From positions 1,798,001 through 1,862,000 of the forward strand of contig AP026547.1 of NCBI GenBank assembly GCA_026075535.2: 64,000 nt of DNA, written 5' to 3'. Of this stretch, positions 4,510 to 37,230 are shown in pieces. Below the pieces are notes generated by a model that did not search any database, was not told the origin of the DNA, and saw only the letters and a list, made by a program, of their open reading frames with translations. A program made the translations under genes and the position numbers. Numbering within the stretch: position 1 is the stretch's first letter; the number at the start of each line of letters is the position of its first letter. This DNA comes from Tricholoma matsutake (Eukaryota; Basidiomycota; Agaricomycetes; Agaricales; Tricholomataceae).

Positions 4510-4618
4510 ACCAATGTATAAGGGATGCATTCTTCTCACGTAGGGAGAAAGTGGCACCTTTGGCAACCCATTGGGTCAACCAGAAGGGCCATCTGACATT
4601 TGGATCTTTGAGGTACAC
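4510..4618 (-). repeat. D1 terminal repeat B2
   Basis: 109 bp, matching B1 (5072-5180) in direct orientation, with A2 between them. Several of the differences are TG in one copy against CA in the other at the same dinucleotide, implying ancestral CG. The left edge is the left boundary of D1. Confidence 0.75.
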
Positions 4619-5071
4619 TACTACAAAGAAGTGTCTAAGGGTGGGTTGGTGGGGAATGAAAGATATATATAGTACTATAAGAGAATCAGAGAAACAGAGA
4701 GAAAGAAGTAAAACTCCACCATACCTGGGAGAGAAAGTGAGAGACAGAGAGAAACCTAGGAAAGGGGTTATCTCAGACAATTCACCTTTCTCCCAAGGAA
4801 TAGGGGAAATGACATAGGTAAGAGATATAGGTGCATGCAGTGCTTTGTCACCATGCAAGATGTGCAAGATGAGGAATCTGCATGCAGTGCTGCATCATAG
4901 CGTGCAAAGTGTGCAAAGATGAGGATGGCATGCAGTGCTGTGTTGTAGTGTGCAAGATGTGTAAAGACACCTCGGAGGCTGTGGCACATGGTGCAGGGTC
5001 ATAGTATCTGTGCAACCAGTTGTCATGGCTTGACCTTTCCATTGGACTTGCATAAACACTCTTTAAACTCG
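4619..5071 (-). repeat. D1 terminal repeat A2
   Basis: About 450 bp lying between B2 and B1. Its 4660-4930 part matches 30223-30490, and its 4930-5071 part matches 37086-37230, so A1 is the same sequence cut in two by a later insertion. Both copies end at the same CTTTAAACTCG boundary. Confidence 0.75.
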
Positions 5072-5180
5072 ACCAATGTATAAGGGATGTGTTCTTCTCA
5101 CATAGGAAGAAAATGGCACCTTCGACAACCCATTGGGTCAACCAGAAGGGCCATCTGACATTCAGATCTTCAAGGTACAC
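5072..5180 (-). repeat. D1 terminal repeat B1
   Basis: Partner of B2, 109 bp. It lies on the internal side of A2, next to the end of the recombinase ORF, as expected for the ORF-B1-A2-B2 order. Confidence 0.75.
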
Positions 5181-5377
5181 CTAAAGCCTATATAGAAAAG
5201 GTAGAGAGTATGGGTAGGGAAGAAGAAAGATGAGAGCAACAATGTGAGGAGCGAAGATATGTAAAAAATTGTCCTTGAGTGTCCAGATTACAGTCCATTG
5301 ATAAATGAAGCTCAGAGATGAAATATGTGTGTTGTGTGGCTTTGTAGCATCTCAGCGGGGAAAGAGAAAGCCACGTG

Positions 5378-6352
5378 TCATGCATGCAGCATTGCCTGCA
5401 GGAGAACGGGATGTTTGCAGATGTAGATCTGCCATGCAGAAGACACCCATTGACTGATTCCTTGAATGATATGCGGAGCAACGCTGTGTTCTGCCACTGA
5501 GGTAGCACCACCAGCATGCATTGATTGGCCTCCAAAGTCCTTGTCAATGAAATGACGGAGCTGAGTCATGAAGAAAGATTGCATTGGGATGCTGCCATCC
5601 TGCTTGAGCCAAAGCGGAGATGACAGGGGGAAGAGACGGTTGTGGGATTTTAGGTAAGTGCAAAAAAGCCTAGTCACATTACAGATGAGGTGATTGTCAC
5701 ACAGGATAATCAGGTTTCCTTCAAAGAATCTGTCGGCCTTATGGCCAGGCAAGAAAAATTAAATGGTCAAAGCCTGCAATGCAACAGATGTCTGCTGAGA
5801 TAGTTTGCAGGGATCTCGCAGAGAGTGATCATCTGGGAATGTGACTTCTCTGAGGCACATTAGCGCAAAGAAACTGACACACAATTGAGTGCAGAAGAGA
5901 ATGTCATCATGCATCGGGAATTGATCATAGGCAGTACATACAGTGTTGAGGTTGTCAATAGTCAGTGCATGTTTACATGTGGTGGGAGTCCCCTGTAGAT
6001 GTTTGCACCCTTGCAAGGTGCAATGTACTAAGCGGGATTTGGGGGTGTCATTGATGGAGGGGAAATAGGGTTCCAATTGTTGACAGATGCCTGAGAGATA
6101 GGTGTCAACAGATACAGGTTTAATATGGTGGCACATATAGACAGTGTAAAGGCTGAGAGTGTCAGCTGTAGGTTCTACAGGCAGGTTGTGCATTCGAATG
6201 AATGAGAGATAGGAGTTGAGGGCTGAGCCATAGTTGTTCCAGGTGCTGATGTCAATCGCCTGGCCAAGGACGATTGTGTGCCCTCGAACCAGGTGCTCTG
6301 GTGACCATGGCTTCTGATGTGGTTGCCAGGCATGGACATGAGAGGTGATCAT
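5378..6352 (-). pseudogene. D1 tyrosine recombinase (YR)
   Basis: This enzyme would integrate the circular DIRS-type element. It starts at the ATG at 6352, whose ATGA overlaps the stop of the upstream RNase H tail (LGAAKK, 6354-6370). The N-terminal core-binding part includes SALNSYLSFIRMH and a YLSGICQQLE motif. A break separates 5759 from 5752. The catalytic half includes GGQSMHAGGATS, then IQGISQW and WQIYICKHPVLLQ. The Tyr nucleophile in QIYI is kept. The family norm, from memory, is SMRAGG, IGRW and IYIRK; here Arg-to-His, Arg-to-Gln and Arg-to-Cys would each follow from CpG transition. It is probably inactive. Confidence 0.7.
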
Positions 6353-6600
6353 TTTTTAGCTGCCCCCAGCGTATGCAGATGTGGGGGTTGAAAAGTTGAG
6401 ATGTGGAGGCATGGGACTAGTGCATGCACCTTGAATGGACCGAGAGATATGATAAACAGACCAAGGATAAATAGGGGGTTGCAAGGCTCCATGAGGTGGC
6501 AGTGTGACACCCGCCCCCCCCAACAGGTCTGCATTTTGAGCGTGAATCCCTATAATCCTATGAAAAGAGTAGGGAAGGGATGGGAGGGTAAAAAAAGGTA
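6353..6600 (-). pseudogene. D1 RNase H C-terminal tail
   Basis: Just upstream of the recombinase (minus strand) the frame reads HALVPCLHISTFQPP and then HTLGAAKK, the typical end of the RT/RNase H ORF in DIRS elements of this fungal group. The main RNase H body of D1 lies about 20 kb away at 26917-27500, separated by the nested block. The 6480-6690 part is not interpretable. Confidence 0.5.
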
Positions 6601-6691
6601 ATAAGCAAAGAGTTGGGAAAAAATGTAAAGAAAAAATACAGGTTGAACAGAGTGATCAGGAACGCTGAGAAATACATGACGATCTTCCATA

Positions 6692-7127
6692 TGTAAGGGG
6701 ACTAGGGGGAACTAGGGGGGGTGCCCTGTGTGTTTCTCCTATTTTTTATGTTCATTCTATATTTTTCCTCACTTCATTTCCTTCTATTCTTCATTTTCTA
6801 TGATGTTTCTGGATTTTATTACTAATTTCCCTTTCTATCACATTTGTGCATGTTGACAGTTTTATATTTAGAGGCAGAGCACGCCTTCCGACATCTTCCC
6901 CTTGGTATGATGTCATTCGGTGGCCTTGATCTGCCTATCTCCGCCTTTTCTATTTTTAGATTATTATTTGATTTTTGCCATCTTCACATATACTGGGCAT
7001 TGGCAAAGGGATCCTTAGAGTTTTCTCTTTGGATTTCCCTTTGCTAGGTGCACCCCCAATCCCTGTAATATGTAGTATAATTTTAACTTTGGATTTCCCT
7101 TTGCTAGAGGCTGAGGTTGCCCTTATA
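6692..7127 (+). mobile_element. Solo LTR of the G2 Gypsy family
   Basis: Begins TGTAAGGGGACTAGGGG and ends CCCTTATA. It matches the two G2 LTRs (30726-31151, 36346-36771) in reverse orientation over its whole length, including the internal duplicated CTAGCAAAGGGAAATCC-type box. Flanking 5-mers are CCATA and CCCTA, a plausible target duplication with one mismatch. It lies between the two recombinase copies. No internal region is present, consistent with LTR-LTR recombination. Confidence 0.75.
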
Positions 7128-7249
7128 CCCTAGTACCAACTGTCTGAGTAGAGTCCACAGTATCTCATATAGAAGAAAGAATCTGTAATCAGAAAAGTCA
7201 ATGCTTTGACAAAGATAAAGCAAGGGGATTAAGTGGAAGCAGGCTCATG

Positions 7250-8231
7250 TGCTGGATGCCCAAAGAGTAGGGCCTGCAAAAGAACAGTGTTCTTTCAGAT
7301 GTAGATTTGGAACATGAGCAAGGCCCACCAACCAATCACCTGAATGACAGGAGGGGCAACACCAGCTTCAGTGAGTGATGTCGCTCTGCCAGCATGCATG
7401 GACTGGCCTCCAATGTCTTTTGGGGAAAATGTTCTGAGCTTAGTCATGAACCATCCACGTGTGGGGACTTCTCCATTTTTCCGCAGCCACAGTTCAGGTT
7501 GGAAAGGATGAAGTGCATCACAAGATGTCAGATATGAGTTGAAGTGAGGGTAGGGGTTTGTGTGGGTGTTGGTGTTCTGGATGATGATTGTGTTGCCTTC
7601 ATAGAAATGGTCTCCCTTGTGTCTGGGAAGGAAGAAGGAGTAGTGGCTCTCATTGACAACAACTGTATGACAAAGTGATACCTTCTTGTAATTTCATGAT
7701 GCTATTTGGTCAAGGGAAAGAGAGCTCACCAAGGCGCATAAGTCCATGGAAACCTGTGAGTAGCATTGCCAAGAATAGTTTGTTGTCATGTGACTGCAAC
7801 ATGCCCAGCTTCTCAATTACGACCTCAAGGTCAGACCTTGAGAGTGGTCGTTTGTGTTTGATGGGAGAACCAAAACAGCAATGGCAGCCAGCAACAGACC
7901 GTTTGACAAGATTATTACTCTGATGAGTTCTGACGTTGGGGAAAAACAGCTCCAGTTGCTTGGCTATGCCTGAAAGGTAGGAGTTGACAGAGTCAGGCTT
8001 GATAAAAGTTGACATGTAGACTGTAACAAAACTGAGAGTTTCTTCAGTGGGTTCAATAGGGAAATGGTGAAGCCTGCAGAAAGTGATATAAGAGTTGAGT
8101 GCAGATGTATAAGTGAGATTGGATGATTCATCAATAGAGAGACCCAGCGCAATGGCACGCTCATGAATGAGGTGTTCCATTGACCATTCTTCTTGGAGAG
8201 GTTGTCGAGACCCCTCAGAAAGCTCAATCAT
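7250..8231 (-). pseudogene. D2 tyrosine recombinase (YR)
   Basis: A second recombinase, of a different DIRS lineage from the one at 5378-6352. It starts at the ATG at 8231 in the context AAAAAATGA, overlapping the upstream LGATKK stop exactly as in D1. The N-terminal part has SALNSYITFCRLH and SYLSGIAKQLELFF. The frame is damaged near 7700. The catalytic part reads GGQSMHAGRATSL, VIGWW and FQIYI, followed by a TGA at 7295-7297 and then KNTVLLQALL. The expected IYIRKN makes this stop a CGA-to-TGA change, and WW for RW a CGG-to-TGG change. The nucleophile Tyr is present. Inactive. Confidence 0.7.
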
Positions 8232-8344
8232 TTTTTGGTAGCCCCCAGCGTATCTTGAGGGGTAGTAAAGACAGAAACCCAGAAAGAGTAGACAATGACA
8301 GTGAGAAGGATTCAGAGACAAAATCAAGCCTGAGATTTGGAAGT

Positions 8345-8784
8345 GCAATTCAGCCCCTTATGACCCTTCTCTTTACAGATGTTGCAGACATGCATCCAGT
8401 GACACACAGTGTCATCCAGGATGCAGAGACCTTGATTCCATCGATTGCAGGCTTCATTCTTCTTGTGTGAACTATTGTGCATTTGTATTTCACCCATGTG
8501 AACCACAGCAGCACCTATCCATGTGACTAGTCCACAGGTCAAGAAACTCATGAAGATCAGTGAGTTCAAGGTCACGTCGCAACCCCACTCAATGCCTGAC
8601 AGCACAGTCAAAAGCGATAACACATGGCCAAAGAGCTCTGTTGACCTGTGCAGAAAAGCAAATACAGTTGCGCAAACAGTCTTGCTCCATGCAATACTCT
8701 AATCACCGGTGGTACTGACAATCTTGTTAGGACTGACTGATGGAAACTTGAACTCCATATCGCCCACAACTTTGATGTGTTCAT
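8345..8784 (-). pseudogene. D2 gag, C-terminal fragment with zinc finger
   Basis: Starting at the G1 insertion point (8784), the minus frame reads EHIKVVGDMEFKFPS and STTGD-stop-SIAWSKTV, a DIRS gag core with TAG where Trp is expected. It then drifts in frame, and near 8340-8460 carries CNRWNQGLC ... CNICKEKGHKGLNC, a cysteine/histidine zinc-finger cluster like that of DIRS gag proteins. The upstream part of the same protein is at 14991-15439. Confidence 0.6.
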
Positions 8785-9186
8785 TGTTAGGGCAACACCC
8801 ACTATCTGCTAGCTAAGACCATGCAGGTTCTCTCTACAAGAAGGGGGCAGGATCTGTGTGCATGATGGGGGAACTGATGGTTTTGATGTGAGGGGTTATT
8901 AATAGATGAGTTGGTTGAGAAAGGCCTTTCACACCAAAAATGTAGGTGGAATACCTAAGAGAACACAACTGGGGTCCCCTAGGCATATATTTAGGGTTTA
9001 TATACTATGTTACATATATTGTACATTGTTGTTACCGACACACTCATACATGCACATACATATTGATGCATGCGAAATAAAATTCTCACATTATCAAAGT
9101 GTAGCATCATTTGGTGTAATGTAGCGTAATTCGACATAATAAAATAAAAATGAAATTTTATTAGGTAATGGGGTGGTTTCCTAACA
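8785..9186 (-). repeat. G1 3' LTR
   Basis: 402 bp with TGTTAG/CTAACA inverted ends. It carries about 10 bp (ACAACTGGGG) not in the partner. Several sites show CA here and TG in the partner, or the reverse. Confidence 0.9.
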
Positions 9187-9197
9187 TTACCCCCCTT

Positions 9198-9662
9198 TTA
9201 TACCTCGACTTCCAGGCGAGAAAATATTGCATCTGTCCCCTCCATGAAATTTTGGTAAGGCCGGAATCTCATCCCCTCATACACCATTCTCGCAATGCGA
9301 CGCGGAGCATTCGGATTATGTTTAAAGAATTGGGTGATCACATTGCAGGCTCGCTTACAATTCTCTTCGGGCTCCCACAAATTATTTTCATTGGTATAGT
9401 TTTTCCACTTTATTAAGAACTCCAATTTGTTCCGTTGAAGACATGAGTCTAGAATTTCTTCAACTATGTATTCTGGAGCACCTTCTACTATTATCGGAGG
9501 TTGTGGAGTAGTTTGTTGGCCAGGAATAGTGGGTGGGTGGTAAGGGCATAGGTGGGATATGTTAATCTCAGGATCAATCTTGAATGATTGGGGTAATTTT
9601 AGCACTACCACATTAGGCGAGATCACTTTAGAGATTGCATATGGGCCAACTTGTTTTTCCAT
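9198..9662 (-). pseudogene. G1 chromodomain (integrase C-terminus)
   Basis: The minus frame reads INISHLCPYHPP (GPY/F-type integrase tail) then EYIVEEILDSC, LEFLIKWKNYTNENNLWEP and CNVITQFFKHN. These are the aromatic-cage and W-P positions of a chromodomain, which in chromoviruses guides integration to heterochromatin. It lies in a different frame from the integrase core upstream, so a frameshift separates them near 9640. Confidence 0.8.
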
Positions 9663-10926
9663 AAGTTTCCTTGAAGGTCATGGAATATTCAGGTCCTTGG
9701 TACTTAGCCACACCAACTTTGTACTCTGGAGCACGTGCTCGAGTATGATCTGTGTGTCGCATCATGTCATCACATGCTTTCTTCAATGCCACCTCTGCTT
9801 CCTCTTGTACCTTTTGCATCTTAGATACAAAGTCTTCTACCAACTGTACTTTGACTTCCCTTCTGGGTTCTACTCCCATGCGAGGATGATATCCATAATT
9901 CATGAAAAAGGGTGACATACGAGTAGCCAAATGGAATTTGTTATTGTGGGAAAATTTGGCAATTGCCAGCCATTCAGGCCAGTCAGTTTGTTGGTAGTTG
10001 ACAAACATATGTAGGTACTGCTCCAACTCCTGGTTCATTCTCTCTGTCTGCCCATCAGTCTGCAGGTGATATGCTGTAGATAGTTTAGTTTGAATTCCCA
10101 ATATGTTGTTCAGTTCTCGCATAAACATGGAAGCAAATTGTGGTCCACAATTGGAGATAACAGTATCGGGTAACCCATGTAACCGCCATACCTGATTTAG
10201 ATAGAGGTGCACCAAGCCCAATGATGAGGTTTCTGTAGTAGTAGGAATAATATGGACCTCCTTTGTGAAGCGGTCACATACTACAAATATTGCATCGTAC
10301 CCTTGAGCCTCGGGTAATCCGGTAATAAAATCCACAGATATATCTCGCCACGGTGCTTTAGGTATAGGGTTCGGCATTAACTTTCCTGCAGGTTTCTCTG
10401 GAAATTTCTTCCCCCTCATGCACGTATCACATCCATCCACATACCCCAACACATACTTCGAAATTCCGGGCCACCAATAGTTTCTCATTACTAATTCCAA
10501 CATCTTCCATCTTCCTGGGTGTCTGGCAGTCAGCATATTATGATGTAACCAGATGATCTCCCTTCGCAAATCCTGATCCTTTGGTACATACACTTTTCCT
10601 TGAAACAACACCAACCCTTGTTCCTCAGCCCATTCATCTCCTTTAATATTACCTTTCTTCTCTCCCTTCAGAGCTTTCACGGCTTCCACTACTTCATCAT
10701 CCATTTCTGAACATTGTCTAATTTTAGACAACATTTCCATTTCCGAGCTATCTATTAATAGATGCCCTTGACGCATAGTGCAAATGCGAAAGTATTTGGG
10801 TTTGAGTAAGGTAACATTCTTATTGTCCTCCTCCACCCCCCTTTTATGATCAATATGTCTGGATAATGCATCTGCTTTCCTCATTAAGCTTCCTGCTTTG
10901 TGGACCAAGTGAAAATTGAAACACAA
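9628..10926 (-). pseudogene. G1 RNase H end and integrase core
   Basis: The frame opens with the end of RNase H (HKAGSLMRKADALSRHID), then the HHCC zinc region (GHPGRWKMLELV ... YWWPGISKY ... CDTCMRGK), then the catalytic core: WRDISVDFITGLPEA (first Asp), VISNCGPQF, TERMNQELEQYL (Glu). The second Asp motif is normally SDRGPQF in Gypsy integrases; here Asp is Asn and Arg is Cys (10147-10152), both explained by CpG transitions. The integrase is therefore predicted to be catalytically dead, although the frame is open for 432 codons. Confidence 0.85.
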
Positions 10927-12170
10927 TAGGAATAGTGCCTAACGCGCTTGCCGGTGATTAAGCTTCTTAGCGGACATGAAGTATTGCAGATTTTGATGAT
11001 CCATCCAGATCTCAATCTGATGTGTACATCCCTCCAAATAATGCCTCCATGCCTCCAATGCTCATATTATCCCCAACATCTCTTTGTCATGCACATCATA
11101 ATTCCTCTCCACATCATTCAACCCTCAGGACAAATATGCCCAAGGATGCCATTTGTCATCTTCACACAGCATTGATAATACTGCTCCAGTAGCAAAATCA
11201 GATGCATCTGATTCCACTCATAAAGGGCATGTGAAATCCACTGGGGCTAATATTGGTCCCTCCACAAACTTCCTCTTCAACTCCTCAAACACTGTCTGCT
11301 GCTGCTCTCCCCACCTCCACACTACTCCCTTTTGCGTAAGGTTATGTAAGGGTGTGGCAATTTTAGAAAAATTGTGCACAAAGCGACAATAATAATTTGC
11401 GAGTCCCAAGAAGGCTTGAACCTCCTTGACACAGGTGGGCGCAGGCCAATCTGTGATCACCTGTACCTTGATCGGATCCATTTTGATCCCATCAGGGCTG
11501 ATCAATAATCCTAGGAACTCAATTTCGCTTGCCCCAAACACACACTTCTCCGGTTTCAAAAATAGATCATTCTCTGCTAACCTCCATAGCACCTCCTGCA
11601 CTATCGCCTCATGATTCTCTTCATCCTCCATGAATATCAGAATGTCATCAATAAATATTATTACCATGCCTTTGTCTATTACATCCTTGAAAATGTTGTT
11701 CATCATATTTTGGAAGGTCAGGGGACTATTAGTCATCCCAAAAAACATGACAAGCGGCTCAAAGGATCCTCGACATGTGGCAAATGTGGCCTTCCACTCA
11801 TCTCCTTTCTTTATTCATACATTGATGTATCCCCATTGTAAATCCAATTTTGTAAAGACCTTGGCTTTTCCCACCTTGTCAATTATTTCTGAGATCAATG
11901 GCAGGGGGTACATGTTGTTCACTGTCCACTCATTCACAGATACCTATAATCTGTACACATCCTCTTCCTTTGGTCTTTCTTTGGCACAAAGAATATTGGT
12001 GATGTCTGCAGTGATTTCAAAGGTCATATGTATCCTTTGCACAATTGCTCCTTCAGGAACACATCCACTTCTTCTTGTTCCATCGTAGATAATGGATATA
12101 CCTTCGATTTCTTTGGCACAAACCCTGGCTTCATCTCAATTGCATGATCCCATGGCTTCTGCACCAGCAT
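10927..12170 (-). pseudogene. G1 reverse transcriptase and RNase H
   Basis: RT spans roughly 12170-11240 in two frames: [13 protein letters not shown] and PIFFVPKKD in one, then FTKLDLQWGYINV, a stop, and FEPLVMFFGMTNSP, IIFIDDILIF and FLGLANYYCRFVHNFS in another, so a frameshift lies near 11980. The YxDD-equivalent FIDD is intact. RNase H follows ([31 protein letters not shown]) with several stops between 11240 and 10927. Non-functional. Confidence 0.8.
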
Positions 12171-13013
12171 TCACTCAGACTCCTTCTTCTGGAACACTGA
12201 CAGATATTCATGATACACTTTTGGCACCCACTCCTCCACTGGCTTCTCCACCTTCACAATATTCTTGTCCCATGACTGTCCTCCACAAATTGCTCTAAAG
12301 GTTTGTTTCTGTTCTTCTTTCTCGATCATGACCAGAACTTCCTCATTTGGCATTTCCTCATCCTCCACTTCCTCCATCATAACAGAATACTTCCTTGGAC
12401 ATTCTTTCTCTTTCTTTTTCCTTTTCTCCTTCTTCATCTTCCTCCCATACACATTACATTCCTTAGGACAATGAGTCATTTGTACTTTCCCAGTTTTCCA
12501 ATCAATTTCAGGATTATGCTTCTGTAACCATGGACATCCTATTATTAGATTGGTTTTCCCAAGATCACACACTTCAAATATGGCTCACTCCTGATGCTCC
12601 TGATACTTTAGTACCATAGTCACCTCCTCCTTGATAGTTCCTCCACGATTGACTGTTCTGTCAATATTGTACACCATTATAGGTTGTGCCAGCTTGCATG
12701 TGTTAATACCGTTTCCAGTAATTAAGGACCAATTAATGAATAATCCTGTAGCACCACTATCAGGCAATGCTTCCACATCAATCACTGCATGTGTGTCCAC
12801 TGTCTTCAGTCCCACAGTCAAGGTGATTTTGGGTTCTATTTGTGCAGAGTGAATAAAGAATTTAGGGGTTTTTGGAAATGGCACATGACAATTTTCTTTG
12901 TCACATGATTGACAATAGTTGTACTCCTCGATTTCCTTTTCTGATTTACTCTGGGTTTCCTCGGATACTAATACATTGTAATGATTCTGGGTCACCAATG
13001 GGGAAACCTTCAC
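12171..13013 (-). pseudogene. G1 aspartic protease and linker
   Basis: The protease active site reads ALPDSGATGLFINW at about 12740-12780, with a typical YNIDRTVNRGG downstream. A stop near 12585 separates it from the linker, which carries NLIIGCPWLQKHNPEIDWKT, the conserved segment before RT, and a Lys/Glu-rich stretch. The protease matures the Gag-Pol polyprotein. Confidence 0.75.
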
Positions 13014-13019
13014 TGGGAC

Positions 13020-14107
13020 TCTTCCACAAAATTCTTCTGCTTGCCTTCCTCTGGCTTCACTTCCTCAATTGTAGCTTCCCTAATCTTTCTTTTCTGCCTA
13101 CAATTTCTAGAAATGTGTCCTAACTGCCCACAGTTAAAACATTTAAGTGGGGCTCATCTCCCTGCTTGATCAACGTCCATTGCCTCTGCTGGTACTGCTG
13201 ACTCCGCAACTATAGGTGTCACTGCCATGGCTGGTGGCTGTGCCCTCAGAGCTTGCACCTGAGGCGCCTTTCCTTTCTCAGACTTTCCTCCTGATGACTT
13301 TCCAAATTTACTACTTCCATACATCAACTTTGACTCCACCTGTTCCTGCCGATATTGCCAGTCAAGGCACATTGCCCAATTATACCACTCGTCCAACTTC
13401 TCTGGCATAGAAGTTAGTCAGTAGATAGACTTGAATAAAGAGGGATTTAATCCTGCTTTCAAAAACTCTACCAACGCAGCTTCTCCCATATCTGTTTGCG
13501 AAGCTTCTGCTTTGAACTGCAAAATAAATTCATCCACCATTAGGGAACCTTGGCACATGGTCTTTAATTTAGCATTGGCTGTCGCCTTTGGATTAGGGTC
13601 TCCAAACTGTGCCTCCAATCTCTCCAGAAATTCCTTGAAGGTTGCAAATGGTTTATTTCCCACAGCAATTTGAGTAATAGCCTCATTTCTCCAGAACTGT
13701 GCTTTCCCCCCCTGAATGTATGAGAGAGCAAACATAATCCTAGACTCAGCTGTATGAAACTCTGGCTTCCTCCCATGGATGTACAATACTATAGAGCTGA
13801 TGAAGGATTTTGTATTCTCCATGGTACCGTCAAAGATTTGTGGGGGCATGTACTTAGGTAAGTGCGCTTTTCCATTTCCAGATTTCTCTGCCATCTCATC
13901 CTCCTGCGACATCCACTCCACCATCTCCTCCATCTCATCATCTCTTTCTCCTGTTGTCTCTGGCTGTACTTCCACTTGTCTGGGCTGTGATGCTGCCAAC
14001 ACTGACACTAATTGCGACATTTGCACTGTAAGTGCATCAATTTTTGACTCTAACGCTGGTGTGGGAACAGGATTAGGGCCGGGATTAGAAGTTGAGGGTT
14101 CAGACAT
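13020..14107 (-). pseudogene. G1 Gag (capsid and nucleocapsid)
   Basis: Starts at the ATG at 14107 (MSEPSTSNPGPNPVP). A coiled-coil-like N-terminus with an acidic run precedes the retrotransposon Gag fold (FDGTMENTKSFISSIVLYI; LSYIQGGKAQFW; FLERLEAQFGDPN; FLKAGLNPSLFKSIY). TGA at about 13415-13417 follows SIY, where the family has Arg (SIYRL). A second TGA near 13153 lies just before a CCHC knuckle, CFNCGQLGHISRNC (about 13099-13145). Both stops are read as CGA-to-TGA changes. Not translatable as one protein. Confidence 0.8.
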
Positions 14108-14594
14108 AATGGTAAAATCTGTGATGAATCACTTCTTTGACAAATTCAAGATTCATTCTTCGGGATCTCTCCAAACGTTTACAGGTCACGTGATTGTTTG
14201 TCGATCATTCGTCAATGGTTCATCGATTGTTCATCATTCATTGGGCGTCTTTCAGATCAATAACCCTTCCAACAGTGCCTGATCTCGGGGATAACACTGA
14301 ATTTGGCTTGTAACTCAAATAGTTGTCCAAATAGAGTGATGTAAATCGTAACTAAACCAGATCCAATTGGTTGTCTGGTTGCAGCTGTCCTAATGACGAG
14401 TGCTGCCTCTCAATCACTGGCAGTTGCAATGTAAGGCAAGGCCTGGCATTGGTTTACAAAAGAAAAGGTAGATTACGTATATACAAGTACTTCTGGCTCA
14501 TGCCGAAGGGATGAGTAATCGGATGTGGTGCAGTGAAACAATGATGTATGCACAAGTAAGAGAAGGTGCACTGATATGGGCAGTTGTGTTCTTC

Positions 14595-16460: not shown

Positions 16461-16463
16461 TTT

Positions 16464-26822: not shown

Positions 26823-26916
26823 TATACTTTGAGGAAAGTTCAATTGAAGACAAAAGTATGGATTTAGCAGAAATCGTATTGCCCACAAAAAAGCGAAGAC
26901 AGCAGACTTGAGGGAG

Positions 26917-27500
26917 TTAGGCAAGTGCAGGGCTGTGAGAGATTGTGTCAGCTACAGTGTTATGTTCCCCAGGAACATGGAGGACTCGGATCTGGAGTTC
27001 TTTCCTGATCATGAGGTCAACACAGTGACAAAGCAAGAGATTGAAATTAGGTTGACACCATAGGGAGTTAAAAATGTTCACAGTATTCATGCTGTTAGTG
27101 TAGATGATGATCTTTGAGCAATGTCCCATCATCCTGTTAACATCATTGCATGTGCTTGCGATGGCAAGAGTTTTGTAGAAAAAGATGATGTTGTGTGCAT
27201 TATCATTTGGCACAGTTGCAAAAAAAACTGGTTGCATGTTGTGGATACCAGAAACTGAGGCCTTGTAAAGAAGCATCACAGAAAATGACTGCATCAGCAT
27301 CTTCGACCTCCCATTTTACACATGAGAGCAGCCAGATACCAAGTGACTGCTTCATATGCTCTGAGGCCCAGATGAGGTCTTCATGCACAGCATTGTTAAC
27401 CCAGATTTTGGTCAAAGGCAGGTCTTTGCCTGCAATTTTTGGATACACTCTATTGAGCACTGGACATAGTAAAGGAAAAACATTGAAGGCCCAGTTCATC
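26917..27500 (-). pseudogene. D1 RNase H
   Basis: Minus-strand motifs: ADAVIFCDASLQGLSFWYP (first catalytic Asp), IIIYTNSMNTVNIFNSLW, and VLHVPGEHNTVADTIS, the typical end of DIRS RNase H. Two overlapping frames are needed, with a break near 27200-27300. Arg is missing after ADTIS (usual ADAISR). The D2 gag begins about 100 bp beyond. Confidence 0.7.
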
Positions 27501-28790
27501 CAACCTGCAAGCTGTTGCCATCTTCATAATGTCCATGAAGCACCATGTTTAACTTCAGACCACGAGGTGAACTTAGTCAGCTCTTCGAGCAGCCCGGCCA
27601 CTGCTTTCTTGGGGAGGCAGAAAGTGAGACTATTAGGGTCCACTTGGATGCTGATGACTGTGAGTTTCTTGCCCCAAACTTGTTTGTGTCATTCATGTGG
27701 TATGCCAAGTTTGTCCCATAAGGACAGAAGCTTGACCTGGTTTCCAGGCATCCATTAATTGTACTTGTGATACCAAACAATGTTTCTATCTTCATCAATG
27801 CCAAAAGAATCATCAATGTATGCCCAAAGATTTTCAATCAGCTTGATGTAACGCGCAATCCATGTCATGAGCCCATGAAAGGATATATAGATTCCTGGAG
27901 ATCCCCTTCCTCCAAAGCAATTATCCCTATCAATGTTGTGTTCTCCATCGATCATCACCACTTGTTTAATTTGCCACAGAGGATGCATAGGTAGCAGCCG
28001 ATAGGCTTCAGCTACGTCTGACTTGTAGATGACCCAGGTCTGTTCGGTGGAGGTTCAACAGTGCCTTGCCAAGATGTGTCATATTGTCTAAAGGGAATCC
28101 TTTGATGTCCTCTCATCTGATCATTTAATTAGGTGCATAAGGTCCTGCACTCTGACTGATCACCATCCACAGTTTCTTGGAGTGTGGCTTAGGTACAGCA
28201 TGGATGGGTGAAGCATGCATCCCTGGCAAAAGATCTCGGCCAAAAGAGCCAGAGAATCTTCCCTTTGAACATTCATGATCCTGTTGCACATGTAAGAAAA
28301 TGGCTTCTTCCTGCTTCAGAGGCATGCCCAGTGATTCATCAACTATTGAGGGACATTCTGTCACATTCACCATGTCTTGTATCTGCCCAAGGCCAAAAAC
28401 CTTCACATAGCCCTCGACAGACTGATTCTACAAAGGGGCAATTTGGGTGAGTCTTCAACAAGTCTTCAAACCGGTCCACATTGATTGGTGTCACTATCTT
28501 GAAGAGGTCTGGCCATGCTTTGATAGTGTTCACTGCATCTTTATTCTCAAATTCCGATGCTGGAACCCCTGACAGAGGCTTCACATACTCGGTCCAATTG
28601 GCTAGACAAGTCTTTAACATCACTCCTTTCTCATCAGTGTTACCACCCTCATCTCCTTCTGACCAAATGTTGTAATACAGGTACTTAGGCATCATCCCAT
28701 AGAGTGCTGACTGCAGCTTTCTTTGCTGTGTCCAGGTTGTCGACATTGCTTGCAGATATGGCAGTATTGACAGGTCCCAGCAGCACTCCT
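27500..28790 (-). pseudogene. D1 reverse transcriptase
   Basis: The N-terminal region YLYYNIWSEGDEGG, PDLFKIVTPINVDRFEDLL and CPFVESVCRGLCEGFWPWA is at 28670-28350. Then come CSKGRFSGSFGRDLLPGM, SPIHAVPKPHSKKLWMV (28300-28150), MHPLWQIKQVVMIDG, FGGRGSPGIYISF and LWAYIDDSFGID (catalytic YIDD near 27809-27820). The start overlaps the end of gag. The enzyme copies the element RNA; here at least three frameshifts and several stops prevent expression. Confidence 0.75.
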
Positions 28791-30200
28791 ACAGCCTGCT
28801 GGGCTGTTATATTGATTGCAGATCTTGACAGAATGGTCCCACTGCCTCAATTCTCCAGCTGTGAAATGACCATTGGAACTTCCTTGGATCCCATCGGGTA
28901 GGAGGAAAGCTGAGTAGAGGTATGAGAATTGGTCATGTTCTGTGAGTAAAATTGCTTGTCCACCCCCAACTCTGGTCCTGACAGCTTTGTCAAATGTGAT
29001 AAGCTTGTGGTGTGAGTTTGCATGTCTGGTGGAGAACTTGCATCCCATGTAGTCACCCCACTGTTGGAGTTCTTTGATTTGGTGGGGAAAAGCATACAAG
29101 GTCACTTTGATGGTCGCATGCCAGGCTGAGGTCCAGTCTCCACTTGTTTGTACCTTTCTAGCTGGATCTGTCTTTCCAAGAGAGATCTCTGTTCTTCTGA
29201 TGCAGCCCACATTCTCCTTAGGAGGGGCAATGTGGTGGAGGTTGCTGAAGATGACATCAAGGTTGACTGATTCTCCTCTAAAGATGTGCCTCCACTCAGA
29301 CTTGTGGAATCCTTGTGGTGCTGATGTGGATCATCGGATTTCTCATTTAGCAAAACTGATATCCTTTTGGAAGATTCCAAGGGTCTCTCTCATCTTCTTT
29401 TGGTTCTTGTCAATCTCTCTTCCCTGCACTTCCACTTCTGCCGCATACCATGGGAGCTGGGACTGATAGACTCTCTTCTTCCTGTTGTTCTCTCCCTCAC
29501 CTCATTCATCCTCTGACCCATCTGCTGAGCTGGATGACTCTGACTGACTTCTCCTTTTTTGTTTTGTGGCCAGTTCTTTTCGTAGGGCTCATAGAAACTG
29601 TTCACCTTCATCTTGTCTGGGTTCAGCTCAGTGTTGTCAGTCATGCTCTGATCTGTGCTCCTGTCCATCTCCATCAGCTGTCATTCCTGTCTCATGTTGT
29701 CCTTGTTGTTCAGCAAGTTGATGTTGGTGGTCGATGATGTCAAGGTGGGTTGTATACTGGTCCAGTGCTGTTCTTCCAATGGACTCGCTAATCTCTGCCT
29801 GTCGGATGATCTGTAAGATCTGGTATAAGGACTCCACCTTGGATGTCTTTCTTTCCCTAAAGACTTTGACAAGCTCATCCATTTTCTTGATGAGGTCAAC
29901 CCTGAATTCTGTATGCATTCCATGTCATCTTTCATGTTCAGGCAGTGGAGAAGTGAGTCGTGATTCTGCTTGTGACAATGAGTGTCGATGTCCAATGGAT
30001 CTGTCAATCAGGACAATAGAAATGCTCCGGGGCACTGCTGGTGCAGACTGTCCTGTGTTTGTAGAGACAGTTTCGCTTGGTCCGCCCTGCTCAGTTGCTG
30101 TTGTTGGCTCTCCTCCAGTTCCTGTTTGCTGTCTGCCTCCCTCTGGGAGAACATGAGGCTGTGATTGTCCAAAATAGTTGACATGACCATTTCCTGACAT
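28692..30200 (-). pseudogene. D1 Gag
   Basis: Start at the ATG at 30200 (MSGNGHVNYFGQSQPHV). A Gln/Gly/Thr-rich N-terminus precedes a helical segment (FRVDLIKKMDELVKVF; TALDQYTTHLDIIDH), a charged linker, then the core EWRHIFRGESVNLDVI, FSNLHHIAPPKENVG, TEISLGKTDPARKVQTSGDW, SAWHATIKVTLYAF and LYSAFLLPDGIQGSS. The C-terminus holds CNQYNSPAGC ... CHICKQCRQPGHSKESC, a zinc-finger cluster at about 28713-28820. Frame changes occur near 29940, 29640 and 29210. Confidence 0.7.
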
Positions 30201-30222
30201 GTGAGGTACGATGTATTGTTTA

Positions 30223-30488
30223 GAATGAAAGATATATGTAGTACTGGGAGAGAAAGTGAGAGAAACAAGTAAAACTCCACCATACCTGGGAGAGAAAGTG
30301 AGAGACAGAGAGAAACCCAGAAAAGGGGTTATCTCAGACAATTCACCTTTCTCCTGAGGAATAGGGGAAATGACATAGGTAAGAGATATAGGTGCACACA
30401 GTGCTTTGTCACCATGCAAGATGTGCAAGATGAGGGATCTGCACACAGTGCTGTGTCATATCATGCAAAGCATGCAAAGATGAGGATG
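30223..30488 (-). repeat. D1 terminal repeat A1, internal part
   Basis: Matches 4650-4930 of A2 in the same orientation. It breaks off at GCAC, where a small transposon is inserted; the rest of A1 is at 37086-37230. Confidence 0.75.
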
Positions 30489-30725
30489 GCACATCAGTAA
30501 TCTTGCATTTCAGTTTCCATGGGTTATTTAACCTGAGTAACCTCTAAAAACCAGCTAAAACTTTGAAACTTGTGAACTCGATGACCTATGTCCCTTTTCT
30601 CTGAAACCTAACATGGGAACCACAAGGTGAAAACCTAGAAAACCAGATATTATATAACACAAATACATTTTCACACAATTGTAAGTTAACAGTAATAGTT
30701 GTACTTAGGCGACACAGGGCACACC

Positions 30726-31151
30726 TATAAGGGCAACCTAAGCCTCTAGCAAAGGGAAATCCAAAGTTAAAATTATACTACATAATACAGGCATTGGGGA
30801 CACACCTAGCAAAGGGAAATCCAAAGAGAAAACTCTAAGGATCCCCTTGCTGATGCCCAGTATATGTGAAGATGACAAAAATCAAATATAACCTAAAAAT
30901 AGAAAAAGGCGGAGATAGGCGGATCAAGGCTGCCGAATGACATCATACCAAGGGGTATGTGTCAGAAGGGGTACTCCGCCTCTAAATATAAAAGTGTCAA
31001 CATGTACAAACATGATAGCAAGGGAAAATTAGTAATAAAATCCGGAAAAATCATAGAAAATGAAGAATAGAAGGAAATCAGGTGGGGAAAAATATAGGAC
31101 AAACATAAAAAATAGGAAAAACACACAGGGCACCCCCCTAGTCCCCTTACA
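30726..31151 (-). repeat. G2 3' LTR
   Basis: Differs from the 5' LTR at seven positions; six are C/T or G/A at CpG. Contains a duplicated CTAGCAAAGGGAAATCCAAA box about 60 bp apart. Confidence 0.9.
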
Positions 31152-31192
31152 TCACCCCCTCTCTAAGATGCATCGCCCCGATGCATTCAAAA

Positions 31193-31900
31193 TCACATAC
31201 GACCAAAGTCCGTGACTTGAATGCAACGTGGTGCAGCAGTGTGCCATCGGTGGAATTCCTTGATTAACCGAGGGGCATTTACATCAGACTCTTTGACCCA
31301 TGAGTTCTCCTCATACCCATAACCCTTCCAATGTACCAAATACTGGAGTTTTTCTTGATGCAAACAGCTGTCCAAGATTGACTCAACTTCGTATTGGGGT
31401 TCTCCCTCGATCACTGTAGGTGGTGGTGGTGGGTGTGAATGGCATCCTGGGAATGGATCTGGGGGAGCTGGAAGCAATTTGACAACATGGAAGACAGGAT
31501 GGAGTCTGGACATGGAGGCTGGGAGGCGTAGATGATAGGCATGCATTCCAACGCACTTGACAATGGGGAAAGGTCCCAAGAAGCAATGAGTGAGTTTCTT
31601 GGATGGACGTGTAGTGGAGACGTCACTGGAGTCAAGATAACTCGATCACCAACCTTGTACTGAGGGGTTGGGGAGTGGCATTGGTTGTAAAATCGTGCCA
31701 TGTCACCCTTCGCCTTTGCTAAGGCTGCCCTTGCCTCCTCCAAGCTATCCCTCATGCGTTCTGTGAACTCATTCACTGTCTTGATGTGTGAGGGAGTTTG
31801 GCGAGGTTCAAATCCCATGCGTGGATGTTGTCCAGTGTCTAAGAGGAAAGGGGTCTGTTGAGTGGAAGCATGGACATGGTTGTTGTATCCAAACTCGGCC
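31193..31900 (-). pseudogene. G2 integrase C-terminus and chromodomain
   Basis: LAEFGYNNHVHASTQQTPF and YKVGDRVILTP end the integrase. A one-base loss near 31610 shifts the frame; it resumes as FLGPFPIVKCVGMHAYHL (GPY/F module), then QYEVESILDSCLHQ, LQYLVHWKGYGYEENSW and LIKEFHRWH, a chromodomain. Such domains bias insertion toward heterochromatin. Confidence 0.8.
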
Positions 31901-33290
31901 AAAGGAAGGAGATCATCCCAATTGTCCTGGCATTCATTGACAAAGAGGCGGATGTACTGCTCCAGTTCCTGGTTGACTCACTCCATCTGGCCATCAGTTT
32001 GTGGGTGATAAGCGGTTGAAGCGAGGAGTTTGATCCCCAGGAGTCGGTACAGCTCACGAGTGAACTCTGCCATGAACTGAGGGCCACGATCTGAGAGGAA
32101 GGCACCAGGAAGTCCATGTAATTTCCACACGTGGTGGAGGTAGAGTCGAGCGGCACCTAGGGCACTGACAGTGGTGTGAGTGGGAATGAAGTGAGTGCAT
32201 TTTCCCACTGAGTCAACTGTGCACATCACCGCATCAAACCCATTTGACTCTGGCAATTCCACCACAAAGTCGATGCTGACAACATCCCAATGACTCTCTG
32301 GAACAGGAAGAGGGTGTAGCTCACCAATAGGCTTGCGACAAGGAACCTTGGTGCATAAGCAAAGGTCACAAGTGTGACAATACTGACCAATGAGCGGTGA
32401 CATTTGTGGCCACCAATAGTTCCGTGAGGTGAGCTCCAAGGTCTTCCAGCATCCGGGGTGGCCAGTAATCTGTGAGTCATGGTGTTGGGATATGATGTGC
32501 CGGTGAAGGTCTGGGTCATTGGGAACATAGATGTGATCCCTGAAATACAACAAGTCCTCCTTTTCAGCCCACTCTGCTGCACGTAAGGAAAGGGTCGATC
32601 CCTTCCTCAGTTCTTTAACAGCTCGGGCGACAACATCCTCATGTAAACCACTATGGTTTGCATGACAAATGTCATGTAGGATGTCCCACTCCTCGCCCTG
32701 GGGTGCGATGCCTTCCAGTGCCCGAATGGTGAACAGGTCTGGCTGCAACAGCACAATGTTTTGGTTGTCACCACTGCCATCCCCATGGTCTGCACGTCGG
32801 GATAGGGCATTGGTCTTCCCCATGCTGCGACCCAGATGGTGGTGCAAGGAGAAGTCAAATCTAGATAGATACAGGGACCAATGAGCTTGACGATGGTTCA
32901 ATTTCTTGGCCATCATGAAGTACTCGAGATTCTTGTGATCCGTCCAAATTTCCACCTTGTGTTGGGCACCCTTGAGGAAGTGTCACCACTCCTCAAGCGC
33001 ACACATTATCACCAACATCTCCTTGTCATGGATCTCATAGTTTTGCTCTACAGCACTAAGGCTTTTGGAGTAGAACGCAACTGGATGCCACTTCTGGTCC
33101 TCCAGAGACTGCTGAGACAACACAGTGCCCGTCGCAAAGTCAGAACTGTTGGCTTCTACACAAAAAGGATGCGAATTGTCAGCAAAGGTAAGGATCGGAG
33201 AAGAAGTGACCATCTCATTAAGCTTTTTGAATGCCTCCTGTTGTGAATTATCCCACCTCCATGCCTCCTTTCCTGTCAAGTCGAACAGTG
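31900..33290 (-). pseudogene. G2 RNase H and integrase core
   Basis: RNase H: PILTFADNSHPFCVEANSSD, HDKEMLVIMCALEEW-stop-HFLKGAQ, VEIWTDHKNLEYFM, NALSRRADH. Integrase: zinc region, then SIDFVVELPESNGFD, FLSDRGPQFMAEF (Asp kept) and QTDGQME-stop-VNQELEQYI. The stops are TGA where Arg is expected (EWRHF; ERVNQ). The integrase catalytic residues are otherwise present, unlike in G1. Confidence 0.8.
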
Positions 33291-33291
33291 G

Positions 33292-34362
33292 TCATGCATG
33301 ATGTGAGAAATCCTTGATAAAACACCGATAGAAATTGATGAAGCCCAGGAAAGACTGCACCTCCTTCTTGTTTGTGGGTGTCAGCCAAGCTGTGACCCTG
33401 TTTACCTTGATAGGATCCATCTCCACTTGACCCTCCGAGATAATCAGGCCGAGGTACTCAATCTTGGTCCTTTTGAACTCGCATTTGTCCTGACAAAGGT
33501 AGAGTTTGTACCATTGAAGTCGCTCTAGGACGAGGCATGTGATGCGATGGTGCTCTTCAACCATGCGAGTGAAGATGAGGATGTTGTTGAGATAGATGCA
33601 GACAACGCCTTCGAGGATGAGGTTGTGGAAGATGTCGTTCATCATGGTCTGAAAGGTGGCAGGGCTATTAGTAAGGCCAAAGAACATGACAAGCGGTTCA
33701 AAAAGACCACAGTTGGTACGAAAGGCTGCCTTCCACTCATCTCCCTCCTTTATCCTCACATTATTATAGCCCCAACAGACATCGAGCTTGGTGAAGTATC
33801 GGGCTCCATGGAGCTGGCTTACGAGTTTGGAGATGAGGGGTAGTGGGTAGCAATTTTTGACTGTGATGTTGTTGAGCCTTCTGTAGTCTTGAACCGGTCG
33901 AAGTGAGCCATCCTTCTTCTTGACAAAGAAAAAGGGAGAGGCCATGGGTGACTTTGATGGTCGAATACGTCCAGAGGCCAGGTGCTCGTCGATGAACTGG
34001 TCAAGCTGCCGTTGTTCTTCCGGAGAGAGAGGATAGACCTTGCAGGATGAAGGGGTTGCACCGGGGGTGAGTTCAATCGTGTGATCCCATGGCTTGCGTG
34101 CAGGAAGAGAGTCGAATGACTCCTTGGAGAACATGTCTTCAAACTCATGGAGATGAGGGAGTAAGGAGTTAGTAGAGGATTTAGCAGCATTGTTTTTGTG
34201 GAAGGCCTTGGCGAGGCGTTGGGATATGTTCGATGTGGCACACACCTCATGCGATGAGCAAATCACAGTGTAGAAGATCTGATCACCCTCCTCCACTTCC
34301 TCTGGGTCCTCATCATCATCATCTGAGTCCGGCATTAGATCAGGAACCCCTTCCAATTCCAC
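33292..34362 (-). pseudogene. G2 reverse transcriptase
   Basis: Open for 356 codons: FDSLPARKPWDHTIEL, RPSKSPMASPFFFVKKKD, DYRRLNNITVKNCYPLPLI, ARYFTKLDVCWGYNNV (motif A Asp), LFEPLVMFFGLTNSPATF. The catalytic box reads CIYLNNILIF (33583-33588) in place of the universal YLDD: both Asp codons are AAC, each explained by one G-to-A at a CpG in CTCGACGAC. The enzyme cannot coordinate the catalytic metals, so it is dead although the frame is open. Confidence 0.88.
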
Positions 34363-35064
34363 TTCAGGTATAGGCAGGGGTCCAGCACGACACTTCTGAG
34401 TACGTCATATTGCCGCCTTCTGTCCACAATGTTCTTGCCTGGCTTCTGTGAAACACATCCGACAGCAGGATGGACATCGGCTCATGGTAACCTCCCTGGT
34501 ATGCCAGTCAACCTCTGGGTTATGGTCTCGAAGCCATGGATATCCCAAAATCACCTTTTGCTTTCCTAATTGAGTGACAGCAAAAAGGGCATGCTCACTA
34601 TGATCTTTGTAACAGAAAACCAGGTCTGCAACCTCTCAGATGGCACCAGCTTCATTTGGGGATCCATCCACGTTATATACAGGTATCGGACGTGAGAGTG
34701 AGTGAGTATTTAGGTGATGTTGTTGTACCAGATGGGAATCAATGAAGAGACCAGTCGCACCAGAGTCCAGGAGCGCAGAGACACCAAGTATCTGTCCAGT
34801 GTCGGTCATCTGCAGTTCGATGGCTAGGTTTAAGGAATGTGCAGAGGGAGTGGATGCCACAATATACTTGCGTGGTAGTTTATGCTCCCATGATTTAATT
34901 TTGGGACATGGAGTAGAAGGAGAGATGGGGAGAGCAGGTACGTCTTTAGCCAACTTCGAAGGGTCAGAGAGGGGAGCAGTCACAGAAATGGATTCATTCT
35001 CTGGGGATTCAACTGACAAGACTTCAAAGCAGTTATGGACAGGCAGTGAGGGTGTACGATTCAC
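34363..35064 (-). pseudogene. G2 aspartic protease and linker
   Basis: Protease motif SALLDSGATGLFIDSHLV at about 34740-34795, YNVDGSPNEAGAI then TGA. The linker has ALFAVTQLGKQKVILGYPW and LRDHNPEVDW, then CPSCCRMC and another TGA before RTQKC. Both TGA sit at expected Arg codons. Confidence 0.75.
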
Positions 35065-36308
35065 TCGCTGCGAATAGGAAAATCCTGCTCCTCTACAACT
35101 TCCAACTTAATCTCCTCTGCAACTTGATCCTTCGCTTCCTCAACATCTACAAGCGCCAACAAATCTTGCAGGAGTTCATCTCATCCCTCGGGGGTGAGCA
35201 TGCGGATATCCTGACGATGGGGACACGCTCCAGCCCTGTGTCCAGGTTCCCCACAATGGTAGCAGAGATCCAACTTATGTGCATGGCTGCAGGCTGCATC
35301 AACATCCATTGGTACTGGGACATTGACAGCTGGTGTGGGAGTTTGACGAACAGGAATGGGGTTAGGGCGGGGGAGGCTTCGATTGAAGGTGTAGGGCATA
35401 TGAGTGGTAGTTGGAGCACAGAATGCAGCATTAAATGCCACATTTGTGAGTCGGTTCTCATCACAGAGTGAAGCAGCTTCATACCAAGCAAGGATATCAT
35501 CATCCGCTGGGTGTCCTTCCAACATCTGTGCAATCTGGTCCTGAATTTCTCGGTTGAGCCCCCGTTGGAACTTCACCACCACTGGTAACCCACTCCCATA
35601 TCCTGCCATGTCCACCAAATCCTTGAACTCATCAATATAGTCGTCCATGGATCGATGTCCCTGGTGGTAAGCGGATGACTCAAGTCATGTCACTGCTCGG
35701 TGGCATTCATTGAGGGGGCAGAAGTGGCATACGAACTCAGCTCAAAAGTCACCCCAAGTGGAGAAAGGTAGAGAACCGAGTTCTTTAGTTTGATGTAGGA
35801 TACAGTCCACATAGAGATAGGCGCATTCAGATTTCATGTATGTGAGGGCCCTATAAATTTTTGCAGCCTCATCAACAAATTGATGGGACTGGAGACTAAT
35901 GTATAACTCACAGGAATTAAGGAATGCATGTCCCTGCGCACATGCACCATTAAATTCGGTGGGGGGGGACAGTTTGATCTGGGCACATTCCTTAGTGGAT
36001 GTGTTTGGCAAAATGTCATTGTTGGGTGCGCTTGGAGTCGTAAAGGGGGAACTATTGGTCGTAGGGTTAGCCTGGAGGGTCCTAACAAAGTTTTCAATCA
36101 TAGATTTAAGTGAGTCGATTTGTGCGTGCATTCCGGAAACGTCACTTTCAAGTGCGTCGAAGCGTTCTGATGCATCCATGTCGCTAGGGAGCACATTTGG
36201 TGCAAATGACGGCATAATAAAGGCGAGATTATCTGGAACGGTGTGTAGGGACTCTGTGGAGCTTTGGGAAGCATTGTCCAGTCCGTACCTGCCTATCTTG
36301 GGCAGCAC
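35065..36308 (-). pseudogene. G2 Gag
   Basis: Starts at 36308 (MLPKIGRYGLDNASQS) immediately inside the 5' LTR. A helical segment (ERFDALESDVSGMHAQIDSL) precedes the Gag fold (LSPPTEFNGA; FLNSCELYISL; LTYMKSECAYLY; FSTWGDF-stop-AEFVCHF; SMDDYIDEFKDLVDMAGY; VVKFQRGLNREIQDQIA). The knuckle CYHCGEPGHRAGACPH is near 35220-35270. TGA stops after GDF, VT, PEG and RSE match Arg positions. Confidence 0.8.
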
Positions 36309-36345
36309 GTTCGCGATTTTCGGGCCTTAGGGGAGAGTTTTCTAC

Positions 36346-36771
36346 TATAAGGGCAACCTAAGCCTCTAGCAAAGGGAAATCCAAAGTTAAAATTATACTA
36401 CATAATACAGGCATTGGGGACACACCTAGCAAAGGGAAATCCAAAGAGAAAACTCTAAGGATCCCCTTGCTGATGCCCAGTATATGTGAAGACGACAAAA
36501 ATCAAATATAACCTAAAAATAGAAAAAGGCGGAGATAGGCAGATCAAGGCCGCCAAATGACATCATACCAAGGGGTATGTGTCGGAAGGGGTACTCCGCC
36601 TCTAAATATAAAAGTGTCAACATGTACAAACATGATAGCAAGGGAAAATTAGTAATAAAATCCAGAAAAATCATAGAAAATGAAGAATAGAAGGAAATGA
36701 GGTGGGGAAAAATATAGGACAAACATAAAAAATAGGAAAAACACACAGGGCACCCCCCTAGTCCCCTTACA
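36346..36771 (-). repeat. G2 5' LTR
   Basis: 426 bp, starting TGTAAGGGG on the minus strand. Short open frames within it are not genes. Confidence 0.9.
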
Positions 36772-37085
36772 ATGCCAGGAAATAAGTAATTAATGGTTGG
36801 AGGGTTTATATACCTGGAGAAGCACATGGACCATTTGACATTGTTTGTTAGCTTATCATATATCTTGCATCACATTGATATCATGACAAATATTGCCACA
36901 TGGTCCGTGCACGTCATCGGGTATATAAACCTTTCACACATGTGCACTTGTGTTCCCTGACAGTAGTTAGTTATATGTACAATTATAATTGCCAGTTTCC
37001 TGGTTTTCAGTTTTTCAGTTTCGAGAAACCAAGAAACCGATGAAAACCATTGAAAACCCGGAATCTATTTTGCAATTTTACTGAT

Positions 37086-37230
37086 GCACACGGTGCTGTG
37101 TCGTAGCGTGCAAGACGTGCAAGGACACCTCGGAGGCTGTGGCACGCGGTGCAGGGTCGTAGTATCCGTGCGACTAGTTGTTATGGCTTGACCTTTCCAT
37201 TGGACTTGCGTAAGCACTCTTTAAACTCGA
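37086..37230 (-). repeat. D1 terminal repeat A1, outer part
   Basis: Matches 4930-5071 of A2. It keeps many CpG where A2 has TG or CA. The right edge CTTTAAACTCGA is the outer boundary of D1; unique DNA follows. Confidence 0.75.

Follow-up and report, generated by a model that had tools for sequence, protein, structure and literature searches.

How a stack of transposable elements in the genome of the mushroom Tricholoma matsutake was put together, and whether all of its parts belong to known classes, is the question raised by the locus described here. The window analysed is a stretch of 64,000 nucleotides (contig AP026547.1, positions 1,798,001 to 1,862,000; C10:1798001-1862000 in a telomere-to-telomere assembly of 161,040,721 bases in 13 contigs). 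A sequence-only reading had proposed a four-deep nest inside a single DIRS-type element, built by five insertions. Comparison of the window with itself reveals three pairs of long terminal repeats (LTRs), those of the elements G1, G2 and G3, the repeats of the outermost element, D1, and an inverted extra G2-type LTR, designated S2. The deepest chain has four elements, with a solo LTR (S) within G3, G3 within D2 and D2 within D1. In a second chain, G2 lies within a small transposon (M) that itself lies within D1, and G1 and S2 are likewise located within D2. The five insertions, and that of S2, which had not been listed, are confirmed by an uninterrupted site in relatives from the same genome at every junction. 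The stack itself is ordinary for a genome in which 71.6% of the sequence is repeats (PMC10211490). The unusual part is D2.

A gag and recombinase family without reverse transcriptase

The family to which D2 belongs has gag, a tyrosine recombinase (YR) and split direct repeats, and lacks reverse transcriptase (RT) and RNase H. In the window, the end of the D2 gag runs straight into the recombinase, and the same organization is present in six related stretches (L042, L043 and L059-L062). An RT/RNase H query that matched all four of the D1-type sequences given matched none of seven D2-type stretches, and there was no match to this query in the D2 parts of the window. L062 measures 3.4 kb from A1 to B2, of which only 187 and 266 bp lie outside gag, YR and the repeats. 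All four split repeats are present in L043, L061 and L062, where those of any one copy are 90-96% alike; L059 has the A pair only and, within the stretch examined, L042 and L060 have none. D2 is not a full DIRS-type element, since its 5′ end falls inside the stretch that matches A1 of L043 and A2-B2 is missing; it is instead a truncated member of this RT-less family.

The spacing of gag and YR was counted from 139 listed gag matches, 114 of which reach residue 264 of 282, and 150 listed YR matches, accepting a YR on the same strand within 9 kb of the gag match. With gag identity of at least 58% (n = 25), 17 matches have such a YR, 13 of them at 739-832 bp and four at 1258-2014 bp; the spacing in the D2 of the window is 757 bp. 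With gag identity of 23-43% (n = 89), there are 44, of which 27 are at 2505-2594 bp, three at 1575-2049 bp and 14 at 3465-8636 bp. The classes are separate, with no member of the first at 2490-2610 bp and none of the second at 700-850 bp. No listed YR lies within 9 kb of the remaining gag matches, 8 of 25 and 45 of 89, respectively. A smaller count, with 83 of the 139 gag and 58 YR matches, gave the same result in kind.

Pairwise counts between copies gave ratios of non-synonymous to synonymous divergence (dN/dS) for all but two of 15 gag pairs. For pairs with dS >0.4, dN/dS is 0.12-0.25 in gag and 0.05-0.27 in YR, and remains 0.10-0.21 and 0.05-0.25, respectively, when CpG-type codons are left out. 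The L059/L042 pair (dS ~0.26) has values of 0.31 for gag and 0.26 for YR. A Phage_integrase match is present in 11 of 19 aligned YR relatives, and the best matches to the predicted YR fold, a model of medium confidence (mean pLDDT 66), are all Cre, at TM ~0.4. The gag model (mean pLDDT 43) was not used.

Relatives are also found outside T. matsutake. Named relatives of gag come from Galerina, Laccaria, Hypsizygus, Armillaria and Piloderma, alongside many metagenome proteins without a name, and those of YR include Mycena; no relative of either was confirmed on viral contigs. One metagenome open reading frame (ORF) of 502 residues, P0103, has both, its first 64 residues being 53% identical to the end of the L059 gag and the rest a YR. 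In a tree of 39 YRs (12 from matsutake and 27 hand-picked from the matches), the seven RT-less matsutake YRs group together with the metagenome protein P0093 (100/100), the next more inclusive group (97/90) adds P0103, P0215 and P0236, and the five RT-bearing matsutake YRs fall elsewhere. Gag and YR proteins were also paired by equal size of the source contig, using 87 of 92 gag and 180 of 188 listed YR entries. Eight pairs have the same size and source, whereas shifting the lengths gives 0.86 pairs on average and at most 4, and four of the eight have room for an RT. P0161 and P0167 sit in a different region of the YR tree and their pairing is probably due to chance. Only P0003/P0215 and P0005/P0236 favour, weakly, the existence of RT-less contigs.

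D2-type A2-B2 units with no listed gag match adjoining are present on C1 at ~17.447, 17.708, 18.068, 17.762 and 18.138 Mb. Those at 17.762 and 18.138 Mb are ~2.6 kb downstream of RT-type recombinases and could reflect a helper element or nested insertions.

Origin and movement of the D2 family

The locus was generated by successive insertions, whose nesting, order and boundaries are established here together with the lack of RT/RNase H in the D2 family; this family is probably a non-autonomous retroelement lineage. A Ngaro-like D1 landed ~0.4 kb from a YggS-like ORF, and a piece of a gag and YR element, D2, then inserted between the RNase H and the recombinase of D1. The old G3, the younger G1 and the marY1-type LTR S2 entered D2, and S entered G3; separately, M inserted into the A1 repeat of D1 and the marY1-type G2 into M. 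RNA of the D2 family may be packaged by gag and copied by the RT/RNase H of an RT-bearing Ngaro in the same genome, with the split repeats presumably rebuilt in a circle that the YR would then insert. As D2 is short at both ends and replaces ~8 bp of its target, it was probably joined by end repair or trimmed later. We lean, with less assurance, towards an old lineage, present in more than one fungus, that lost its RT once, diversified under selection on gag and YR and has lived on the RT of Ngaro elements.

D2 could instead be nested debris, a Ngaro copy from which RT was lost by internal deletion, with its relatives likewise dead deletion products. Truncation of D2 at both ends, the stops or inserts in several copies and the weak constraint between close pairs would all fit. 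This is nevertheless unlikely, given that copies down to 58% gag protein identity keep one gag-YR spacing, with L075 aligning to L062 without a break across the gag-YR stretch, that diverged pairs have the low dN/dS documented above, that three copies retain all four split repeats and that a gag-YR ORF, P0103, occurs in other DNA. Movement of the family as a Crypton-like DNA circle, by recombinase alone and without reverse transcription, would account for the absence of an RT, and a Crypton YR alone can excise and insert (PMC3212892). In a DNA-only element, however, a gag with a zinc-knuckle end under constraint would be superfluous, and in L062 A1 and A2 are 95% alike, against 79-83% when set beside the A repeats of the three other copies in the comparison, as expected if the repeats are rebuilt in each cycle. 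That contrast is absent from the close relatives L043 and L061, whose within- and between-copy values are equal (91-93%). We regard such movement as improbable. The region is almost wholly repeats and was assembled from reads of ~10 kb (PMC10211490), so that a false stack made of collapsed or misjoined repeats has also to be considered. This is very improbable: the junctions have their own duplications or exact empty sites, two have decayed forms of one target, and the window contains no N characters. Nor is a breakpoint of the assembly likely, as each empty site recurs at other places in the genome.

Several observations weigh against the preferred reading of the D2 family as an RT-less retroelement lineage. 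No helper RT element was identified for the family, and the D1-type RT, which has no RVT_1 match in Pfam, is recognised by a YMDD-type motif and its place in the gene order. The four wide D2-type spacings depart from the common one; in the one that was read, a copy on C5, a hidden RT was rejected, as the gap holds a 1.19-kb insert without an RT match. Close pairs are weakly constrained (dN/dS 0.29-0.50 for gag and 0.24-0.91 for YR), as expected from decay after insertion, and dS is saturated in the deep pairs. In the translations of L043, L059 and D1, there are CpG-type changes at recombinase positions that relatives conserve and that look catalytic there, and the matsutake copies translated are therefore probably inactive.

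Retroelements that keep gag and have no RT are exemplified by HeT-A of Drosophila and TR-GAG of plants; to our knowledge, neither has a tyrosine recombinase or split direct repeats. The open-access literature searched gave no description of a YR retroelement with gag and YR but no RT; subscription papers and Repbase were outside the scope of that search. Ngaro elements (PMC3783388) and the D2 family share split direct repeats, gag and a YR, but the D2 family lacks the RT and RNase H. SIRE, the non-autonomous partner of VIPER, is likewise a short derivative of a YR retroelement thought to borrow proteins, but retains only terminal parts of VIPER (PMC6681497), whereas the D2 family retains the gag and YR genes. 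Cryptons resemble the D2 family in having a YR and no RT, but have neither gag nor long direct repeats (PMC3212892). Membership of the D2 family in the Cryptons was rejected, as gag and split repeats are present and YR is not the only protein. Surveys keyed to RT are blind to an RT-less element, and such a class could therefore sit among the 'unclassified' repeats that constitute 25.4% of the T. matsutake genome (PMC10211490). If gag and recombinase are kept without an RT, the family separates the steps of the YR-retroelement cycle that an element may borrow from those it has to encode in cis, and provides a natural test of RNA-RT matching.

The Ngaro-like host and the order of insertions

By its repeat and gene architecture, D1 is Ngaro-like, based on the features given for Ngaro elements in PMC4157794 and PMC3783388. 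Both in the window and in L045, the split direct repeats are arranged as A1 ... B1-A2-B2, with the inner repeats after the recombinase, and in L045 and L046 the full order is A1-gag-RT-RNase H-YR-B1-A2-B2. The RNase H and YR matches in L045 are 78 bp apart, which leaves no room for a methyltransferase, and no match to a Dam methyltransferase was found in the L045 stretches scanned, a scan that covered part of the ORFs. The D1-type RNase H-like matches are weak (E 0.0017 and 0.022). The D1 recombinase is homologous to the YRs of relatives; the broken ORFs of the window themselves have no Pfam match, and Pfam searches with single broken ORFs were mostly empty for YR, gag and RT. The earlier designation of D1 as DIRS-type is not upheld, and D1 was rejected as DIRS1-like, as its repeats are direct and split rather than the inverted terminal repeats, with an internal complementary region, that mark DIRS1-like elements. 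The YR retroelements of Agaricomycotina are reported as Ngaro rather than DIRS (PMC3783388) and, in the description given there, have the same split direct repeats, gag and YR and no methyltransferase, features that D1 fits. The closest relative of D1 (L039:4521-6237 and L041:2154-5918; C7 ~3.7395-3.7609 Mb) is split by ~16 kb, part of which is a G3-like element, and 15 bp from its 3′ end there is a piece of D1-type gag in inverted orientation.

Joined short flanks of each insert were used as probes against 24 stretches (L039-L062) and the window, and all six junctions tested in this way (M, G2, G1, G3, D2 and S2) are crossed by relatives without the insert. The D2 site, between the D1 RNase H and recombinase, is crossed by four D1-type stretches (L041 at 88%, L045-L047 at 73-74%). 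G1 and G3 lie within the D2 gag, as proposed; the G1 site is uninterrupted in all six D2-type stretches and the G3 site in five, the sixth, L042, matching only from window position 15149, where it is cut off. The S2 site is crossed by two of the six (L059 and L043, 68% identity), and the other four match the flanks on either side as separate pieces. S was checked in 39 other scored G3 copies: at least 30 have the two halves of the element directly joined, and all 12 sites read are without S. The M site in A1 is crossed without the insert in two places, D1's own A2 and L039, and all 11 stretches of the M family have an uninterrupted G2 site. The coding continuity noted across the junctions is also present: a D2-type gag query matches the window with residues 6-94, 88-182, 184-251 and 244-282 in the stated order, and the D1-type RT/RNase H query matches the two sides of D2 with residues 365-476 and 475-508.

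Most of the proposed target duplications stand. That of G1 is exact (TTCAT/TTCAT). The S site has GTGT/GCAT, and the 12 uninterrupted G3 sites read have GCGT (2), GTGT (2) or GCAT (8); the G2 site has ACACC/ATGCC, and the nine M copies read have ACGCC (1), ACACC (4), ATGCC (1) or other sequences (3). CpG decay on either strand of one target accounts for both imperfect pairs, since some relatives keep the undecayed GCGT or ACGCC. The G3 pair, GCAG/GCGG, has one CpG-type change, with the undecayed form absent from the five relatives read, and the S2 pair, CCATA/CCCTA, has one transversion, for which CpG decay is no explanation. The 4-bp GCAC duplication proposed for M is not retained: among nine of the 11 M-family stretches (L049 and L050 of those share flanks), none shows 4 bp and seven show 2 bp; the joined sequence is identical either way. 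There is no target duplication in the flanks of 4510 and 37230 for D1, in line with a Ngaro element, and none was seen at the 6434/26930 flanks of D2, where L041 has ~8 bp absent from the window.

With CpG-type differences masked, Kimura two-parameter distances are 0.036, 0.045 and 0.031 for the D1 repeats, 0.023 for the G3 LTRs, 0.0028 for G1 and 0.0024 for G2; unmasked, they are 0.079, 0.113 and 0.113, 0.090, 0.049 and 0.017, respectively. Dating of the repeats with CpG masked, as had been proposed, thus agrees with the nesting, although the values of D1 and G3 are within error of each other and so, after masking, are those of G1 and G2. Of the 18 differences between the G1 LTRs, 17 disappear under the mask, which suggests that the unmasked distance is mostly a methylation-decay clock. 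The stack provides a checked insertion order for setting CpG-decay clocks in a mushroom genome.

Element boundaries and neighbourhood

Nearly all of the coordinates proposed earlier were recovered, except that G1, placed to 14985, ends at 14984.

Table 1. Elements of the stack and their parts, in window positions (TSD, target-site duplication)
Feature	Position	Strand	Remarks
D1	4510..37230	-	Ngaro-like; 32.7 kb in its present state, 5.6 kb once D2 and M are removed; relatives L041, L045-L047
D1 repeat B2	4510..4618	-	90% to B1
D1 repeat A2, uninterrupted	4654..5072	-	self-comparison
D1 repeat B1	5072..5180	-	self-comparison
D1 tyrosine recombinase region up to D2 junction	5378..6433	-	ORFs; 88% to C7 relative
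D2	6434..26930	-	truncated copy of RT-less gag and recombinase family; 2.7 kb without S2, G1 and G3
S2, marY1-type solo LTR inside D2	6692..7127	.	436 bp; 91% to G2 LTRs; flanks CCATA/CCCTA
D2 tyrosine recombinase, two overlapping-frame ORF pieces	7298..8357	-	74-76% DNA identity to C13 and C2 relatives
D2 gag C-terminal end	8327..8698	-	zinc-knuckle-like CCHC pattern, read by eye
G1, gypsy-type LTR element	8785..14984	-	TSD TTCAT; integrase matches
D2 gag middle piece, between G1 and G3	14990..15443	-	residues 88-182, 184-251 of gag query
G3, old LTR element	15444..26562	+	9.8 kb net of S; weak RVT_1; flanks GCAG/GCGG
G3 LTRs	15444-16460 / 25513-26562	+	83.7% alike
S, solo LTR of G3-related family, inside G3	18558..19894	+	flanks GTGT/GCAT
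D2 gag N-terminal piece	26563..26930	-	residues 6-94 of gag query
D1 RNase H, RT, gag and inner part of A1	26931..30491	-	RT/RNase H query; 91% to C7 relative
D1 repeat A1, inner part	30223..30491	-	self-comparison
M, small terminal-inverted-repeat transposon	30492..37086	.	544 bp net of G2; TSD CA/CA
G2, marY1-type gypsy element	30726..36771	-	RVT_1, RNase H, integrase; flanks ACACC/ATGCC
D1 repeat A1, outer part	37093..37230	-	90% to A2

The last 84 bp of S are 86-88% identical to the ends of the G3 LTRs. The 1,337-bp unit recurs elsewhere with the same ends, and no LTR pair is present among 40 scored copies. There are at least 16 other genome copies of G1 that cover positions 1-6193 or further, at 91-93%. 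G2, at 6,046 bp with 426-bp LTRs, fits marY1 of T. matsutake, for which 6,047 bp and 426-bp LTRs are published (PMC10211490), by size, LTR length and gypsy-type pol. Two copies of M, L049 (C8:36001-39000) and L050 (C1:11439501-11442500), have identical flanks, and so probably result from a segmental duplication; the C8 copy is near the end of that contig.

Beyond the stack, an alanine-racemase-N (YggS-like) ORF at 37649-38206, ~0.4 kb from the end of D1, is possibly a host gene. Inverted repeats of ~260 bp, 95% alike and 3.6 kb apart, delimit 39648-43805, perhaps a DNA transposon, and a 22-bp tandem array (43377-43538) adjoins one arm. ORFs at 45181-47111 have the CxC5 and CxC6 cysteine clusters associated with KDZ transposases. 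A copia element at 53608-59341, with 274-bp repeats that are 98% alike and an open frame of 1,631 codons (gag, integrase and RVT_2), looks young, and an 830-codon ORF at 61075-63564 has RVT_1, RNase H and zf-RVT matches and is LINE-like.

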